Shown: positions 4,081-14,383 of the stretch, in pieces
How positions within the stretch are numbered: the stretch's first letter is position 1
Layout: each line of letters begins with the position of its first letter
NCBI GenBank assembly: GCA_002070045.1
Contig: MWCN01000053.1
Coordinates: 1-33,062 of the forward strand
DNA from: Candidatus Cloacimonetes bacterium ADurb.Bin211
GTDB taxonomy: Bacteria > Cloacimonadota > Cloacimonadia > Cloacimonadales > Cloacimonadaceae
DNA length: 33,062 nt
Reading direction: 5' to 3'
Position numbers and translations under genes: made by a program
The notes under the pieces: model-generated
Seen by the model: the letters and a program-made list of their open reading frames with translations, nothing else
Told to the model about the DNA's origin: nothing
Database searches by the model: none

Positions 4081-7000
4081 CTATTTTAGCAGCATCATCC
4101 GACGCGTAAATACCTTATTTTTTGTCTCCAGACGATAAAAATAGACTCCTGAAGACACATACTGGTTATTACGATCCAGACCGTTCCAGACTACATTATA
4201 ATTTCCTGGAGCAAAATTATCCTCTAACAGAACCTTCACCAATTGACCTTTTATATTATAAATGGACAACTTAGCCTTACCCGGTTCTGCCAGATCAAAA
4301 GATATGGTAGTGGTTGGATTAAATGGGTTGGGATAATTTGACTTTAGTTTAGTGATTAAACCAGGAATGGGTGGTTCATTTATATCTTCATAAGGGAACA
4401 TAAACTCAATAGTATCTGAGGGACATCCTTCCATATTATAATATAAAGCTCTAATATAATATTTATATAGTCCATTAAGCGAAATATAATCAGTATATGA
4501 AGTAATATCGGTAGTGTGGACTAATTCAAAGGGACCCGTGTTAAATTTCTTATATACTTTATATCCACCGATAGGAAGGACTGGATCATAAGGTTCTGCC
4601 CAGCTAAGTGAGACCTCTCCTGTCTCATTATTAACAATAAAATCTGTATTTACAGGCTTGGGCAAATCTATAAGAGTGAAATCACTTTGCCTGAGAGGAG
4701 ATTCAGGTGTTATCTGAATATTAAAAGCACTGGAAGACTGATGATAAGGTAAACTTGCGGTAATATCATAAGTTCCAAAAGGTAAATATAATTTATATGA
4801 ACCATTGTCATCTGGATGAGTGGAAAAATGATTATTAGCCATAATCAGTGTTTTGCTTGCCGGAGTAGTAGAAGTAGGTGTTACCAGACCATATATATAG
4901 CCAGTCTTTTGATTGACACCACTGAGCTCAAAATTATCTATAAACCATCCTATCCCGGTAGTAGAACTGTCCGAAGTCATACGAAAGCGAAAACGCACGG
5001 TTTGATATTCATATTGGCTCAAATTGAATTGCACTGTTTGCCAGGAGCTTATAGAACCAGTAAAGCCCGGCTGACTATTTAAACTTACAATATTATTAGA
5101 AGGATAACCACCCAGAGGTGTAATAACGGTCCAGTTATTTCCATTATCAACAGAGATGCTTACATTACCTCCATCATAATTATTTTCCATACCATATATA
5201 TGCCGAAAAGTTAGTATGCAACTACTTTCCAGGGTATATTCAGGAGTAACTAAAACATAATCAATAAGATTAGGATAGTTCCCATTTAAATTAGTTGCCC
5301 AGACTTTTACTCCGGAATAGGGACCAACTTGAGCAGGAATACCCCATTCCCATCCTGTTTCCGAGATGAAATCACCATCATTAGATTCAAAATCATTGAA
5401 GACATTTGCAATATTGTAAGGCACTAAAATATTATTAGATATGGGCAATCCATTAGAAATAGATATATTAAATTGCATAGAAATATATTGTGAGAGTGAA
5501 CTTACACCAGTAAATTGAACTTCAAATACAAATTGCATTATAGTATTTGGTTCAATCAGTGGCAAATTAATTATCGGATTCACTATCATAACATCTGAAC
5601 TGGAAGTAGATAGTGTAGCCATAACTTCACGAGATTGAACATCGGAATGATTGTAAACATTAACAATAATCTTAACGGTTTCCAGTGGTTCTATAATCCC
5701 ATTGAAATTGGCATCAGCATCGTTTATCAGATATGAGAAGAATTCAAGGACAGAGGCTTCTATTCTTACAGTAAAATTCCGTTGCCAGCTAAATTCTCCA
5801 GAACTGATTAGTAGATGAAAGTTTACTACCGTTCCATTAGGACATTCAGGAGCTACGGTGAACACAAAAGGCTGCTGATTCACTCCAAAGCTATCAGTAG
5901 TCAAAGAGTAATATGTTCCTGTAGCAGTAAGAATATTGATATAAGGATTGTTAGTACTCAGCGTAGCAGTTATATTTTCCGCTGTCTGATTACCGATATT
6001 CTGTATTTTAATACCTAATCTTATTGTTTCACCTGGTTCACAGACACCATTACCATTATTGTCATCTATATAAGTTTCATTAAGGATGATATGTGGGTCA
6101 TAATAATAAAGAGGAACATTGGTTATATAAAGTGCCCTTTGATTTCCCAGAGGTGAAGCAGCTATGGGATAGACATTATTGAAAGTATATTCCAATCCCA
6201 TCGTTCCAGTATGGTCTTCAATACCTATAGTAGCATAGCAGCCATGACGATTGCCCGAGGTCATATCTACATTATTAAAGGTTTGATATTGAAACTTAAT
6301 AGGACCATCTCCCAGAGAAGTAGGATACATACTCTGATCATAAAGGATAACTTCAAAGGTTTCCAAGGAGGAACCATTACTGCCATTCTTGAGGTTATAC
6401 CATTCTATCACAAAACTATGATTATTGCGGTCATACCAGGTGTAGATTCCACCTCCTGCATGGGTGGCTAAATCATCCCAGAAGGGTGCAATCATCGGAC
6501 TAGGTCCCATAGGTCCAGGTAGACGATAATTACGAAATTCGCCGTTTTCGGTTGCTCCCATAGCTATAAAGCCATTAGAGCAAACCGTTATCTGATCATA
6601 TACCTGACCATAAAATTGGAAAGGAAAAGGTAATTCCACTATAGCCAGAGCATTTGCTCCCACCTGATCTCCTTCATCTCCACCCGTATAGGCATCGGTG
6701 ATAGGCAAAGCTGTTCCTAATCCACCTTCAGCAGGAGCAATTTCAATCCAGTTATATAGGGGACATTCTTCATAATCTGTATCCTGGTCATCATAGATGA
6801 CATAACCATAACTATCGGGTCCGAGAGGATCATCAACTGTAACCTCACCTATAGTTAGAGAAAAATCCAGCCATTGCTCAAAACCAGAACTATTATAAAG
6901 CTTTAATCGCATAGGAATAATCATTCCTGGGAGCAACATCGGTCTACCATAAAGCTGAAAGTTATCGGTGGTTGGCGTTACTTCAATATTGAAAAATAAG

Positions 7001-11036: not shown

Positions 11037-11693
11037 TTAAATAATCCCTAAAAGATGCATCATAAAGTTTATAGGAGGAATAATTAGTCTTCCAACAATA
11101 TTAAATCCCAAAAGACCAGAAATCATCAAAATAAAGATGATTGCTATCATACCGATTCGTTCATATGCCATAAATTTATAGAAAGCATAATCAGGTAAAA
11201 GCATACCTAAGACCTTTGAACCATCAAGTGGTGGTATGGGAATTAAATTGAAAAAGGCTAGCAATAGATTGAAAAATACTACCATTTGACAGATATAGGG
11301 TATTAACTGCTGACCCTGGGTTAGATGAAATATAATTGCAAATACTATAGCTATCAAGAAATTAGCAACTGGACCGGCTAAGGCAGATAGACCTGTTCCT
11401 ATTTTTATGTTTTTGTAATTATAAGGATTTAAAGGTACCGGTTTAGCATAACCAAGTATTATCCCCATAGTAAAATAAGTCAGCAGCGGAAGAATTATGG
11501 TGCCAAATATATCTATGTGTTTAAATGGGTTAAGACTCAATCTACCCATCACTTTAGCCGTATCATCACCCTGCCAATAAGAGACCAGCGCATGGCTAAT
11601 TTCATGAAGAATAATGGAGTAGAATATTATTAATATAATAATAAAAGTTAATGTGTTTTCAATCATATTCATTGATATTGCTGCAAAATTCAT
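11037..11693 (-). CDS. Small site-2-type (M50) intramembrane metalloprotease
   Basis: A polytopic membrane protein of 218 residues in the M50 (site-2 protease/YdiL-YwhC-like) family. The zinc motif HEISH is at residues 30-34 in the first hydrophobic segment, and the second active-site motif NLIPIPPLDG at 149-158 supplies the zinc-binding Asp. Four to five hydrophobic segments fill most of the chain, including the SALAGPVANFLIA segment near 103-115. There is no PDZ domain, so it belongs with the short standalone rhomboid-sized members rather than RseP. The start ATG overlaps the tyrS stop (ATGA) with GAGG five bases upstream. The substrate is unknown, and tight coupling to tyrS says little about function. 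Confidence 0.88.
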   Translation of the reverse strand: MNFAAISMNMIENTLTFIIILIIFYSIILHEISHALVSYWQGDDTAKVMGRLSLNPFKHIDIFGTIILPLLTYFTMGIILGYAKPVPLNPYNYKNIKIGTGLSALAGPVANFLIAIVFAIIFHLTQGQQLIPYICQMVVFFNLLLAFFNLIPIPPLDGSKVLGMLLPDYAFYKFMAYERIGMIAIIFILMISGLLGFNIVGRLIIPPINFMMHLLGII

Positions 11694-12892
11694 TGTTTCC
11701 TCAATCTTAAAAACTTTCTTTTACCAACACGCAAAACCATTCCGTCTTCAATTTCAATATCCATATCAGAAGAAGTTATTTTCTCGCCATTTATACTAAC
11801 TCCACCAGCTTGTATCAATCTTTTGGCTTCACTTCCAGATTCGCACATACCGCTTTCAGTCAATAGTTTAGTAATACGCATAACGGGATAATTAACTTTG
11901 TATTCAGGAATATTATCAGGCAATTCTCTCTGAGAAAAGACCCTTTCAAAAGTTCTTTGAGCTTCATCGGCAGCTTGTTCACCGTGATAAAATGCAACTA
12001 TCCTGTGTGCCAGCTGTTTTTTTAATATCATTGGATTAATGCCATTATCCAATGCTTTCTGAATGGCATCCAGTTCCTCTGCATCAGCCCAGGCTGCATA
12101 TTTATAATAATTTAGTATCAAGTTATCGGGTATGGACATAATCTTGCCAAATTTCTCTTCTGGCGAGTCAAAAACCGCTATATAATTATTCAAAGATTTA
12201 CCCATTTTATTGACACCATCCAGACCGATTAAAAGAGGAGTGAGAATGGCAACCTGCTCTTCCTGCCCAAAATAGCGTTGCATATCCCTTCCACAGAGAA
12301 TATTAAACTTCTGTTCCGTTGCTCCAAGTTCCACATCACTTTGTACTGCTACAGAATCATAAGCCTGTAGAAGAGGATACATTAATTCATGAAGACCGAG
12401 CGGAAGTCCTTGTTCATATCGGGTTCGGAAGGTGTCATGAGCCATAAATTGAGCCAGAGTAAAATTTCCCATCAACTTTATTACATCTTCAACCGTCATT
12501 TTACCGAACCATTCACTTTGCCATCTAACTTCCGTTTGTTCCTGTTTTAAAACAGTATAGAGCTGTTCCATAAACCTATCTGCATTAGATAGAACCTGCT
12601 GATGAGTGAGTGGTGGGCGGGTTTCATCACGACCTGTAGGGTCACCAATCTGAGCCGTAAAATCACCAATAATTATTACACCCGTATGCCCTAAATCCTG
12701 AAAATCCCGCATTTTACGAATAGGAACTAAGTGGCCTAAATGAACATCTGTGCCAGTGGGGTCTATACCAAATTTTATTCTTAATGGTTTACCCGTCTCT
12801 TTGCTGCGGATGAGTTTTCTTACTAAATCTTCTTCTGGAATGATTTCATCTACTGCTTTTCTTATAATTTTCAGTTCTTGTTCTAAATTCAT
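11690..12892 (-). CDS. tyrS: Tyrosyl-tRNA synthetase
   Basis: A class I aminoacyl-tRNA synthetase that charges tRNA-Tyr. The 400 residues comprise a Rossmann catalytic domain with the HIGH-type motif HLGH at 51-54 and the KMSKS loop written KMGKS at 229-233, a helical anticodon-binding segment, and a C-terminal S4 RNA-binding domain at about 335-400 (RITKLLTESGMCESGSEAKR). The overall look, including FGIDPTGTDVHLGH and GQEEQ, fits the TyrZ-like branch rather than E. coli TyrS; this is a judgement from memory. ATG has AAGGA upstream. It is first in a probable operon tyrS-M50-glnA. No tRNA-like T-box leader was recognised in the sequence before it. Confidence 0.95.
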   Translation of the reverse strand: MNLEQELKIIRKAVDEIIPEEDLVRKLIRSKETGKPLRIKFGIDPTGTDVHLGHLVPIRKMRDFQDLGHTGVIIIGDFTAQIGDPTGRDETRPPLTHQQVLSNADRFMEQLYTVLKQEQTEVRWQSEWFGKMTVEDVIKLMGNFTLAQFMAHDTFRTRYEQGLPLGLHELMYPLLQAYDSVAVQSDVELGATEQKFNILCGRDMQRYFGQEEQVAILTPLLIGLDGVNKMGKSLNNYIAVFDSPEEKFGKIMSIPDNLILNYYKYAAWADAEELDAIQKALDNGINPMILKKQLAHRIVAFYHGEQAADEAQRTFERVFSQRELPDNIPEYKVNYPVMRITKLLTESGMCESGSEAKRLIQAGGVSINGEKITSSDMDIEIEDGMVLRVGKRKFLRLRKQ

Positions 12893-12958: not shown

Positions 12959-13140
12959 GCCCTACAGATTTGAATTAGATTAATACTTTATATAATATGG
13001 TCTAACAATTTCCAGCCTTCTACCCGAGTTATTAATCTGTCTTTTTGCTGCTTTTATGGAATTTCAATGTAATTTTATGGCTACGAAACAGATAGATTTT
13101 CTTAGCGTGTTAATATAGAGTAGGTGGATATAGTGGGTGC

Positions 13141-13239: not shown

Positions 13240-13292
13240 AAAACTTGTACCGCATTAATAATACTGTGAATAGATGAAAACTAGTACCGCAT
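13240..13292. repeat. 16-bp direct repeat pair
   Basis: AAAACTTGTACCGCAT (13240-13255) and AAAACTAGTACCGCAT (13277-13292) differ at one base and start 37 bp apart. They lie between the short repeat cluster and the main inverted repeat. Purpose unknown. Confidence 0.55.
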
Positions 13293-13293
13293 G

Positions 13294-13315
13294 ATGCAAA
13301 GGAGGACCTTTGCAT
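13294..13315. repeat. 9-bp stem-loop
   Basis: ATGCAAAGG (13294-13302) and CCTTTGCAT (13307-13315) are exact reverse complements around a four-base loop AGGA. No T-tract follows on either strand, so it is unlikely to be an intrinsic terminator. It sits just outside the left arm of the 31-bp inverted repeat. Confidence 0.55.
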
Positions 13316-13322
13316 ACCTAGT

Positions 13323-13375
13323 AATAAATTCGCAAAGCAGGGTAATAATTTCGCAAAAAAATGGATTATTTCGCA
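13323..13375 (+). repeat. Left arm of long inverted repeat with three TTCGCA motifs
   Basis: Bases 13345-13375 are a perfect reverse complement of 13716-13746 (31 of 31). The match continues outward with a one-base indel through AATAAATTCGCA (13323-13334). TTCGCA occurs at 13329, 13350 and 13370, spaced 21 and 20 bp, so on the same helical face. Confidence 0.8.
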
Positions 13376-13386
13376 GGTGAAAAATG

Positions 13387-13714
13387 GGGTAAAATAGGGT
13401 TAACTTATTCTTATATAAACAAGTTAGGCATATTTTGAAATTTCCCTATAGTCCCCTGGAGAAATTGATAAATTATTATATATATTTAAATCTTTGTAAG
13501 TATAAGTTATTATATATATTTAAATCTATGTATATCTAAATAGCTTTAGGTTTAAATAACTAGTATATAATTAGTTAATATATATCTTGGCTCTCTCTTG
13601 ACTCTTTCCTGACTAAAAAGAGAAGGGGGAGGTAGGGGTTGGTAAAGAGACAAAAAAAGAGGTATAATTTATTGATAAAGAATGAGATAGGTGAGAGACA
13701 AGGGTAAAATAGGG
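13387..13714. repeat. 13-bp direct repeat bordering the core
   Basis: GGGTAAAATAGGG occurs at 13387-13399 and again in the same orientation at 13702-13714, just inside the two arms of the long inverted repeat. Direct copies inside inverted arms could be duplicated sites, but the element is too short to assign. Confidence 0.5.
13473..13527. repeat. 21-bp AT-rich direct repeat
   Basis: The same 21 bases, TTATTATATATATTT followed by AAATCT, occur at 13473-13493 and 13507-13527, starting 34 bp apart. This is the most AT-rich part of the gap. Such tracts melt easily and are common in replication origins and strong promoters, but no DnaA box (TTATCCACA) was found nearby. Confidence 0.6.
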
Positions 13715-13715
13715 G

Positions 13716-13767
13716 TGCGAAATAATCCATTTTTTTGCGAAATTATCCCAATTTCTGCGAATTTATT
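13716..13767 (-). repeat. Right arm of long inverted repeat with three TGCGAA motifs
   Basis: Reverse complement of the left arm; 13716-13746 is perfect and TGCGAATTTATT at 13756-13767 mirrors 13323-13334. TGCGAA occurs at 13716, 13736 and 13756 with exact 20-bp spacing. A further copy of the 12-mer TGCGAATTTATT lies outside at 13844-13855. Confidence 0.8.
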
Positions 13768-13877
13768 GTTCGCTGCTATTTTATTAAAAGGGGAGTGACT
13801 TTACAAAATTCACTTGTTTTACTCTATATGCATCAGGTTCTTATGCGAATTTATTTTCCCGAATTTAACTCCTAAAG

Positions 13878-13909
13878 AATATAGCCAGTCACCAAGGACT
13901 GGCTATATT
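13878..13909 (-). terminator. 13-bp stem-loop past the oxidoreductase-epimerase operon
   Basis: AATATAGCCAGTC (13878-13890) pairs exactly with GACTGGCTATATT (13897-13909) around a six-base loop. It lies 70-100 bases after the epimerase stop on the minus strand and is the strongest hairpin in the gap. Only a short CTTT follows in that direction, so it may act as a 3'-end stabiliser rather than a classic intrinsic terminator. Confidence 0.45.
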
Positions 13910-13978: not shown

Positions 13979-14383
13979 CTATTCTTCTTTTTCCTGACAT
14001 AATTCTATAAGGACACCGAGAGTTGATTTAGGGTGCAGAAAGGCAATATCAGAATGATGAGCACCTGGCCTTGGCTGAGAATCTATGAGGCGAAAGCCAT
14101 TTTCTTGAGCTTTGGTAAGTTCTTCGGCTATATTATCTACTTTGAGAGCGATGTGTTGTATACCTTCTCCCCTATTCTCAATGAATTTAGCGATAGGACT
14201 TTCGGGAGAGGTGGGCATCAACAATTCCAGACGAGTTTCTCCACAAGGGAAGAAGGCTACTTTTACCATTTGAGATGGAACTTCTTCAATACCTTCAAGT
14301 TTTAAGCCGAGTTTTTCATAAACAGCAATAGCTTCATCCAGATTTTTCACAGCTATACCAATATGAGAGATATGCTTAATCAT
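13979..14383 (-). CDS. mce: Methylmalonyl-CoA epimerase
   Basis: Interconverts (R)- and (S)-methylmalonyl-CoA. The 134 residues form two vicinal-oxygen-chelate (glyoxalase-like) repeats. Metal ligands expected from the family are visible: His7 (HISHIGIAV), His77 (GIQHIAL) and Glu127 (GVLIELCQ), with Glu53 the likely fourth. Length is typical. The start is ATG with AGAGGAG a few bases upstream, eight bases after the gamma-subunit stop, making it the last gene of the operon. Its place next to a 2-oxoacid oxidoreductase suggests a link between succinyl-CoA and propionyl-CoA; the mutase and decarboxylase are not in the window. Confidence 0.9.
   Translation of the reverse strand: MIKHISHIGIAVKNLDEAIAVYEKLGLKLEGIEEVPSQMVKVAFFPCGETRLELLMPTSPESPIAKFIENRGEGIQHIALKVDNIAEELTKAQENGFRLIDSQPRPGAHHSDIAFLHPKSTLGVLIELCQEKEE

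Follow-up and report, generated by a model that had tools for sequence, protein, structure and literature searches.

We find that the spacer between tyrS and a mce-like gene, within the 33,062 nucleotides analysed here (the window, from Candidatus Cloacimonetes bacterium ADurb.Bin211), carries a member of a family of non-coding units that is apparently undescribed; these are ~0.3–0.75 kb long and present in Cloacimonadota. This copy is probably, at roughly 0.7, an orphan of an origin-like DNA unit made of iterons and of a meltable TATATA-rich core, whose normal place is directly 3' of a gene encoding a PrimPol-PriCT2-DUF3987 protein with a probable winged helix.

Two arms of 31 bp, exact reverse complements lying 340 bp apart, had been noted in the preliminary description, and the repeat analysis confirms them as well as the matching seen outward to 13323 and 13767: a 12-bp match (13323–13334 with 13756–13767) adds to the arms, and 13323–13375 and 13716–13767, taken as a single alignment, give 89% over 54 columns. 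That a match of this length is not due to chance also holds: one expects ~3e-11 matches of 31 bp at distances up to 500 bp, and the perfect inverted repeats of 200 shuffles never exceed 17 bp; among arms at most 1 kb apart, no other perfect inverted repeat of the window is as long, the runner-up having 16 bp. The core was rightly called AT-rich and gene-free: it contains 72% AT vs 63% for the window, and no ORF of at least 80 aa is found in the 1086 bp of the tyrS-mce spacer. The internal direct repeats reported there are real too, the one of 13 bp (GGGTAAAATAGGG) at 13387 and 13702 and the one of 21 bp inside a 34-bp tandem pair, 88% identical. What had been missed is the array structure of the arms, and also that the right-hand side has a fourth box, at 13844: on each side, a 13-bp box, approximately GGATAAWTTCGCA, recurs every 20–21 bp, i.e. 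two helical turns, and all boxes of both sides face the core (Table 1). The 31-bp inverted repeat is the inner portion of these two facing box arrays around a TATATA-rich core; the unit may reach the end of the fourth box, at 13856. It has no match in Rfam.

Table 1. Features of the tyrS-mce spacer and its flanks (window positions).
Feature	Position	Strand	Remarks
Whole unit: inward-facing box arrays and AT-rich core	13323..13767	.	Repeats; related copies in UBA3541 (G016) and W5 (G027)
Left arm of the perfect inverted repeat	13345..13375	+	Contains 2 of the 3 left TTCGCA boxes
Right arm of the perfect inverted repeat	13716..13746	-	
Left iteron-like boxes	13323..13375	+	TTCGCA at 13329, 13350, 13370 (spacing 21, 20), toward core
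Right iteron-like boxes	13716..13768	-	TGCGAA at 13716, 13736, 13756 (spacing 20), toward core
Fourth right-hand box	13844..13856	-	Ends the 88-bp segment repeated in UBA3541 at the mce locus
Core, candidate unwinding region	13376..13715	.	72% AT, seven TATATA words
34-bp tandem repeat in core	13468..13535	+	
tyrS, left neighbour	11690..12892	-	Pfam
mce-like glyoxalase-family gene, right neighbour	13979..14383	-	Pfam
Terminator-like hairpin of the mce-like gene	13878-13909		Inverted repeat
Small-gene 3'-end remnant (gene of ~150 aa)	12991..13044	-	tblastn E 2e-4, 18 aa

Other repeats occur in and around this unit. The 88-bp segment adjoining the right arm (13767–13855) is present as about three repeats in UBA3541 (L041, G016:C55, about 6440–6630). 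At 13589–13613 the core contains pyrimidine-rich phased repeats of 11 bp (TCAAGAGAGAG / CTTGACTCTCT), which are dispersed in the genus, often as facing pairs (L023, L029, L030, L035, L188). A family of intergenic palindromes (TGCAAAGGAGGACCTTTGCA, TGCAGATGTCCTCATCTGCA, GGTGGAAGGAGGTCC and others) has a member at 13283–13317 and further ones in L004, L005, L008, L039, L044 and L045; their stems differ, their centre is similar (GTCCTC/GAGGAC), AAGC...GCTT often follows them, and many copies exist across the genomes compared here.

The closest named relatives of tyrS, in Cloacimonadota, are those of UBA3541 (93%) and of Candidatus Syntrophosphaera thermopropionivorans W5 (92%). The preliminary description had held that a unit without any copy, in close relatives or elsewhere in the genome, would argue against both a mobile element and a conserved site; related units are found in both UBA3541 and W5. 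UBA3541 has the core and right arm beside mce (C55), which is the window's own place, and again on contig C27, with right-hand homology to the window until about 13844, while its contig C2 terminates in the left arm and the beginning of the core. Its contigs end within the core, which a repeat would be expected to cause; the halves are therefore not joinable with certainty, and at the mce locus the right half alone is visible. W5 has two complete related units of ~0.63–0.69 kb, at C4 and C56, and none between mce and tyrS; in the tyrS-mce spacer, whose comparison between relatives the preliminary description proposed, the unit is thus seen in UBA3541, as its right half, but not in W5. Reciprocally, the unit at W5 C4 has a lipoprotein gene on one side and a thioredoxin-like gene on the other, and the matching spacer of the window genome has no unit. 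None of these spacers makes a clean empty site, because they differ in other ways too.

Beside the unit, at 12991–13044, the minus strand still codes for the 18 C-terminal residues of a small protein (KDRLITRVEGWKLLDHII; E 2e-4). The small gene is intact at the corresponding place in W5, to which the DNA flanking the remnant is 85% identical, and its family, of ~150 aa, is found near DUF3987 genes in UBA3541, W5, G022 and G023 (members at L206:3836-4288, L210:5923-6372, L207:5297-5749 and L112:6829-7272; two members compared with Pfam, PHROGs, NCBIfam and PADLOC gave no match). The remnant in the window and the intact gene in W5 suggest, without proving it, that a fuller module probably once occupied the tyrS-mce spacer. 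The window itself contains neither a DUF3987 gene nor an intact small gene, and no DUF3987 gene was found in its genome, whose assembly (1.4 Mb in 163 contigs) is 72% complete.

The copy of UBA3541 C27 lies directly 3' of an intact gene of 772 aa. Its product has the Pfam domains BT4734-like_N, PriCT-2 and DUF3987; BT4734-like_N is a primase family of archaeo-eukaryotic type (PMC5862659), and the primase assignment is backed by matches to phage primase/helicase and PrimPol families. The DUF3987 portion shows a P-loop-like motif and the C-terminus resembles, by eye on the alignment, a winged helix; a search for a matching solved structure gave none. In W5, the complete unit at C56 likewise follows this gene on its 3' side, but there the gene is broken. 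This arrangement is common in the genus: most DUF3987 genes are followed, 3', by an inverted repeat of ~25–130 bp around a TATATA-rich core of 170–640 bp. Counting as a unit any inverted repeat of at least 26 BLAST bits with at least three TATATA in its core, within 1.2 kb downstream, we found one for 13/20 DUF3987 genes of the genus vs 0/148 other ORFs from related loci, a strong difference but one that gives no clean probability, since the first units were already known when the criterion was set and the genes within a genome are related. Four of the 7 misses still have 5–11 TATATA words 3' of the gene (two end at contig ends; G022:C3 and G023:C36 show repeats and TATATA by eye), and the other three, G020:C4, G023:C20 and G026:C92, are without any TATATA. 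TATATA-poor inverted repeats near the DUF3987 genes of G018:C27, G020:C4 and G022:C3, and a second repeat near G020:C14, were considered as units and discarded: they are dispersed GC-rich repeats.

Outside the genus, DUF3987 genes are mostly without unit; one of them, in G001, a genome like that of C. acidaminovorans, is accompanied by a TATATA core with weak box-like repeats. The similarity of the winged helices is a weak predictor of that of the boxes (Mantel rho 0.15, p about 0.05). No relatives were found in IMG/VR and phage collections, and the plasmid search gave a single distant match, in Parabacteroides.

Units also stand apart from any such gene. In G020, this is the case of the clusters C5, C6, C27, C20 and C2, which are not near a DUF3987 gene. 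C6, C27 and the gene-linked C14 are 83–90% identical essentially only between their outermost boxes, and so are, as a separate pair, C5 and C20; the sequence shared by the W5 copies is confined in the same way, the DUF3987 gene being outside the repeated block. Orphan units also occur in G022 and G023. Orphans are found in spacers beside ordinary genes, e.g. that of an Obg GTPase. When TATATA clusters were searched in G020 regardless of arms, all 8 had flanking repeats (C23, at a contig end, by eye); among the matches listed for G022, the clusters have flanking repeats as well, C11 on one side only, and the census of units in G022 and G023, drawn from the matches listed, is a lower bound.

Such dispersal recalls a MITE, one of the options of the preliminary description. 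The unit would then be a non-autonomous DNA transposon, with an unlinked transposase cutting at its terminal inverted repeats, and its proximity to DUF3987 genes would reflect an insertion preference. Part of this option stands: the copies are short, non-coding, discrete, scattered between genes and bordered by their inverted-repeat arms, and the terminal box arrays resemble multi-site transposase ends. However, no target-site duplication is visible at the borders of the aligned copies, which offer no clean empty site for comparison, and no transposase was found beside the copies examined (nor was an integrase recognised among the few neighbours scanned). Besides, the linkage to one replication gene family (13/20 vs 0/148) speaks against a MITE, and the arm words are wholly different between units while the type of core is constant, which is the reverse of a MITE family. 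We therefore regard a MITE as unlikely. A more precise idea, suggested by the TGCGAA boxes, was that of IS21/Mu-like transposon ends; it was rejected because the boxes point inward and no such transposase lies beside the copies, and also because the sequence beside the innermost left-hand box (GGTGAAAAATAGGG) recurs from site to site.

The arm sequences of most units are mutually unrelated; within one unit, a word recurs in both arms, like CAATTACG, eight times in G022:C34, CCTATTCA, six times in G022:C3, and AGTAGGTA, five times in G023:C13. By eye, similar layouts bear different words: ATCACTT (G022:C49a), ATCAATT (C49b) and ATTACTT (C7), as if the box words changed in concert. In G022:C49, two complete units, with the words ATCACTT and ATCAATT, stand in tandem (L297, 1380–2120). 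TTCNCA was tried as a word common to all units and abandoned, its enrichment being restricted to 9/30 units. In two species, a gene for a PhoB-like response regulator is preceded by a coreless array of two to three TTCGCA boxes (window genome, G000:C120, L037 342–415; UBA3541 C2, L042 4930–5000); these arrays were not retained as full copies, the core being missing.

The two arms of a unit vary together. In G022, comparisons with C62 show 11–14 two-sided changes that keep the arms complementary, vs ~1 expected, and 4–12 one-sided changes; the counts of two-sided compensatory changes in other copy groups are small (0–2). Between the window arms and those of UBA3541 (C2 left, C55 right), two of the three differences are mirrored, by eye and on the assumption that these two halves form one unit. 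Such co-variation would result from selection on pairing as well as from copying of one arm to the other. It could be that the arms work by pairing and not as words bound by a protein: upon opening of the TA core, a long hairpin would be recognised or copied, as in a very large stem-loop of pRN1 type, and copying from arm to arm would keep them alike. The strong two-sided compensation fits this idea, as does a shape maintained by arms whose sequence is unrelated between units, a behavior shared by pRN1 origins (PMC4234260). On the other hand, pairing alone does not need boxes at helical spacing (20–21 bp) in each arm, and the loops, of 170–640 bases, are far above the pRN1 size. We consider this explanation quite improbable.

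The reading that we prefer, an origin-like unit attached to a primase-helicase gene, has precedents. SaPI origins are made of iterons located directly downstream of rep and read by the C-terminal domain of Rep (PMC7581432). The SaPI rep-ori, and likewise SCCmec Cch2 with its putative origin, resemble our case: the initiator is a helicase that has a DNA-binding part at its C-terminus, and an origin built of repeats directly follows its gene on the 3' side (PMC7581432). The unit family is similarly found just 3' of the gene, with repeats flanking an AT-rich region, whereas the window copy has no gene beside it. The kinship has limits: the helicase class is DUF3987 with PrimPol, and domains of SaPI Rep type, such as DUF927 or Primase_Cterm, are absent from the linked protein, for which Pfam gives DUF3987, BT4734-like_N and PriCT_2. 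Unlike in SaPIs, no integrase or capsid genes were recognised among the neighbours examined and the sites also exist as dispersed chromosomal orphans; the origin role proposed here is deduced from sequence. In pRN1, a stem-loop directly 3' of the primase-helicase-winged-helix gene serves as origin, and its shape is conserved while its sequence is not (PMC4234260). Like orf904 of pRN1, the linked gene may encode a PrimPol-helicase-winged-helix protein (PrimPol and PriCT-2 by domain match, the helicase part with a P-loop-like motif, the winged helix by eye) and is followed, in the unit family, by a candidate origin whose inverted-repeat shape is kept despite sequence drift; unlike the 100-bp stem-loop of this plasmid, the units have arms of ~25–130 bp, cores of 170–640 bp and repeated boxes. 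PICMI satellites are small chromosomal elements that also use a DUF3987 primase as replication protein (PMC10803314); however they are phage satellites with integrase, AlpA and Fis genes, none of which is seen here.

By analogy, the DUF3987 protein would bind the boxes of both arms, open the TA-rich core and prime DNA synthesis there; we infer these steps because the origins of SaPI Rep and pRN1 ORF904 occupy the same position 3' of the gene. A replication or segregation site had been among the options of the preliminary description, and its replication part gains from the position of the unit family directly 3' of primase-helicase genes, without extending to a chromosomal origin. The latter, suggested by an AT-rich region with boxes on both sides, was already disfavoured and is hardly credible: the GC skew, proposed as a check, does not switch at the unit, several different units exist per genome, and the locus is not conserved in W5. 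A regulatory or chromosome-organising site for the flanking genes (operator cluster, parS-like or nucleoid site) is very unlikely as well. The coreless arrays near the PhoB-like regulator gene are in its favor, but the unit lies more than 400 bp upstream of tyrS and downstream of mce, the W5 spacer is without unit, and related units adjoin unrelated genes; the two-sided operator cluster formerly envisaged is not needed to explain the unit.

How gene-linked and gene-less units are related has a parallel in RAYT-REP/BIME, where one gene family accompanies one palindromic repeat copy and many gene-less copies lie elsewhere. The resemblance resides in a gene-linked copy plus gene-less ones; the RAYT gene is an HUH transposase and REPs measure 20–40 bp, unlike the primase-helicase and the units of ~0.3–0.75 kb described here. 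The units are probably mobile, and we tentatively propose, as a possible though doubtful extension, a new kind of mobile element: stand-alone primase-helicase genes devoid of integrase, each with private origin-like sites, these sites being mobile and spreading as gene-less satellites while box words and arm pairing evolve in concert.

Plasmids and phage satellites are known to have iteron origins located behind a primase-helicase gene. The new part is the dispersal of origin-only copies: in the literature covered, which is incomplete, we found no published description of dispersed origin-only chromosomal copies with family-specific box words. If true, the initiation of replication would be tied directly to the way repeats spread, changes of specificity could be studied on a natural series of initiators with their matched origins, and the DUF3987 genes that stand alone in chromosomes would be given a function.
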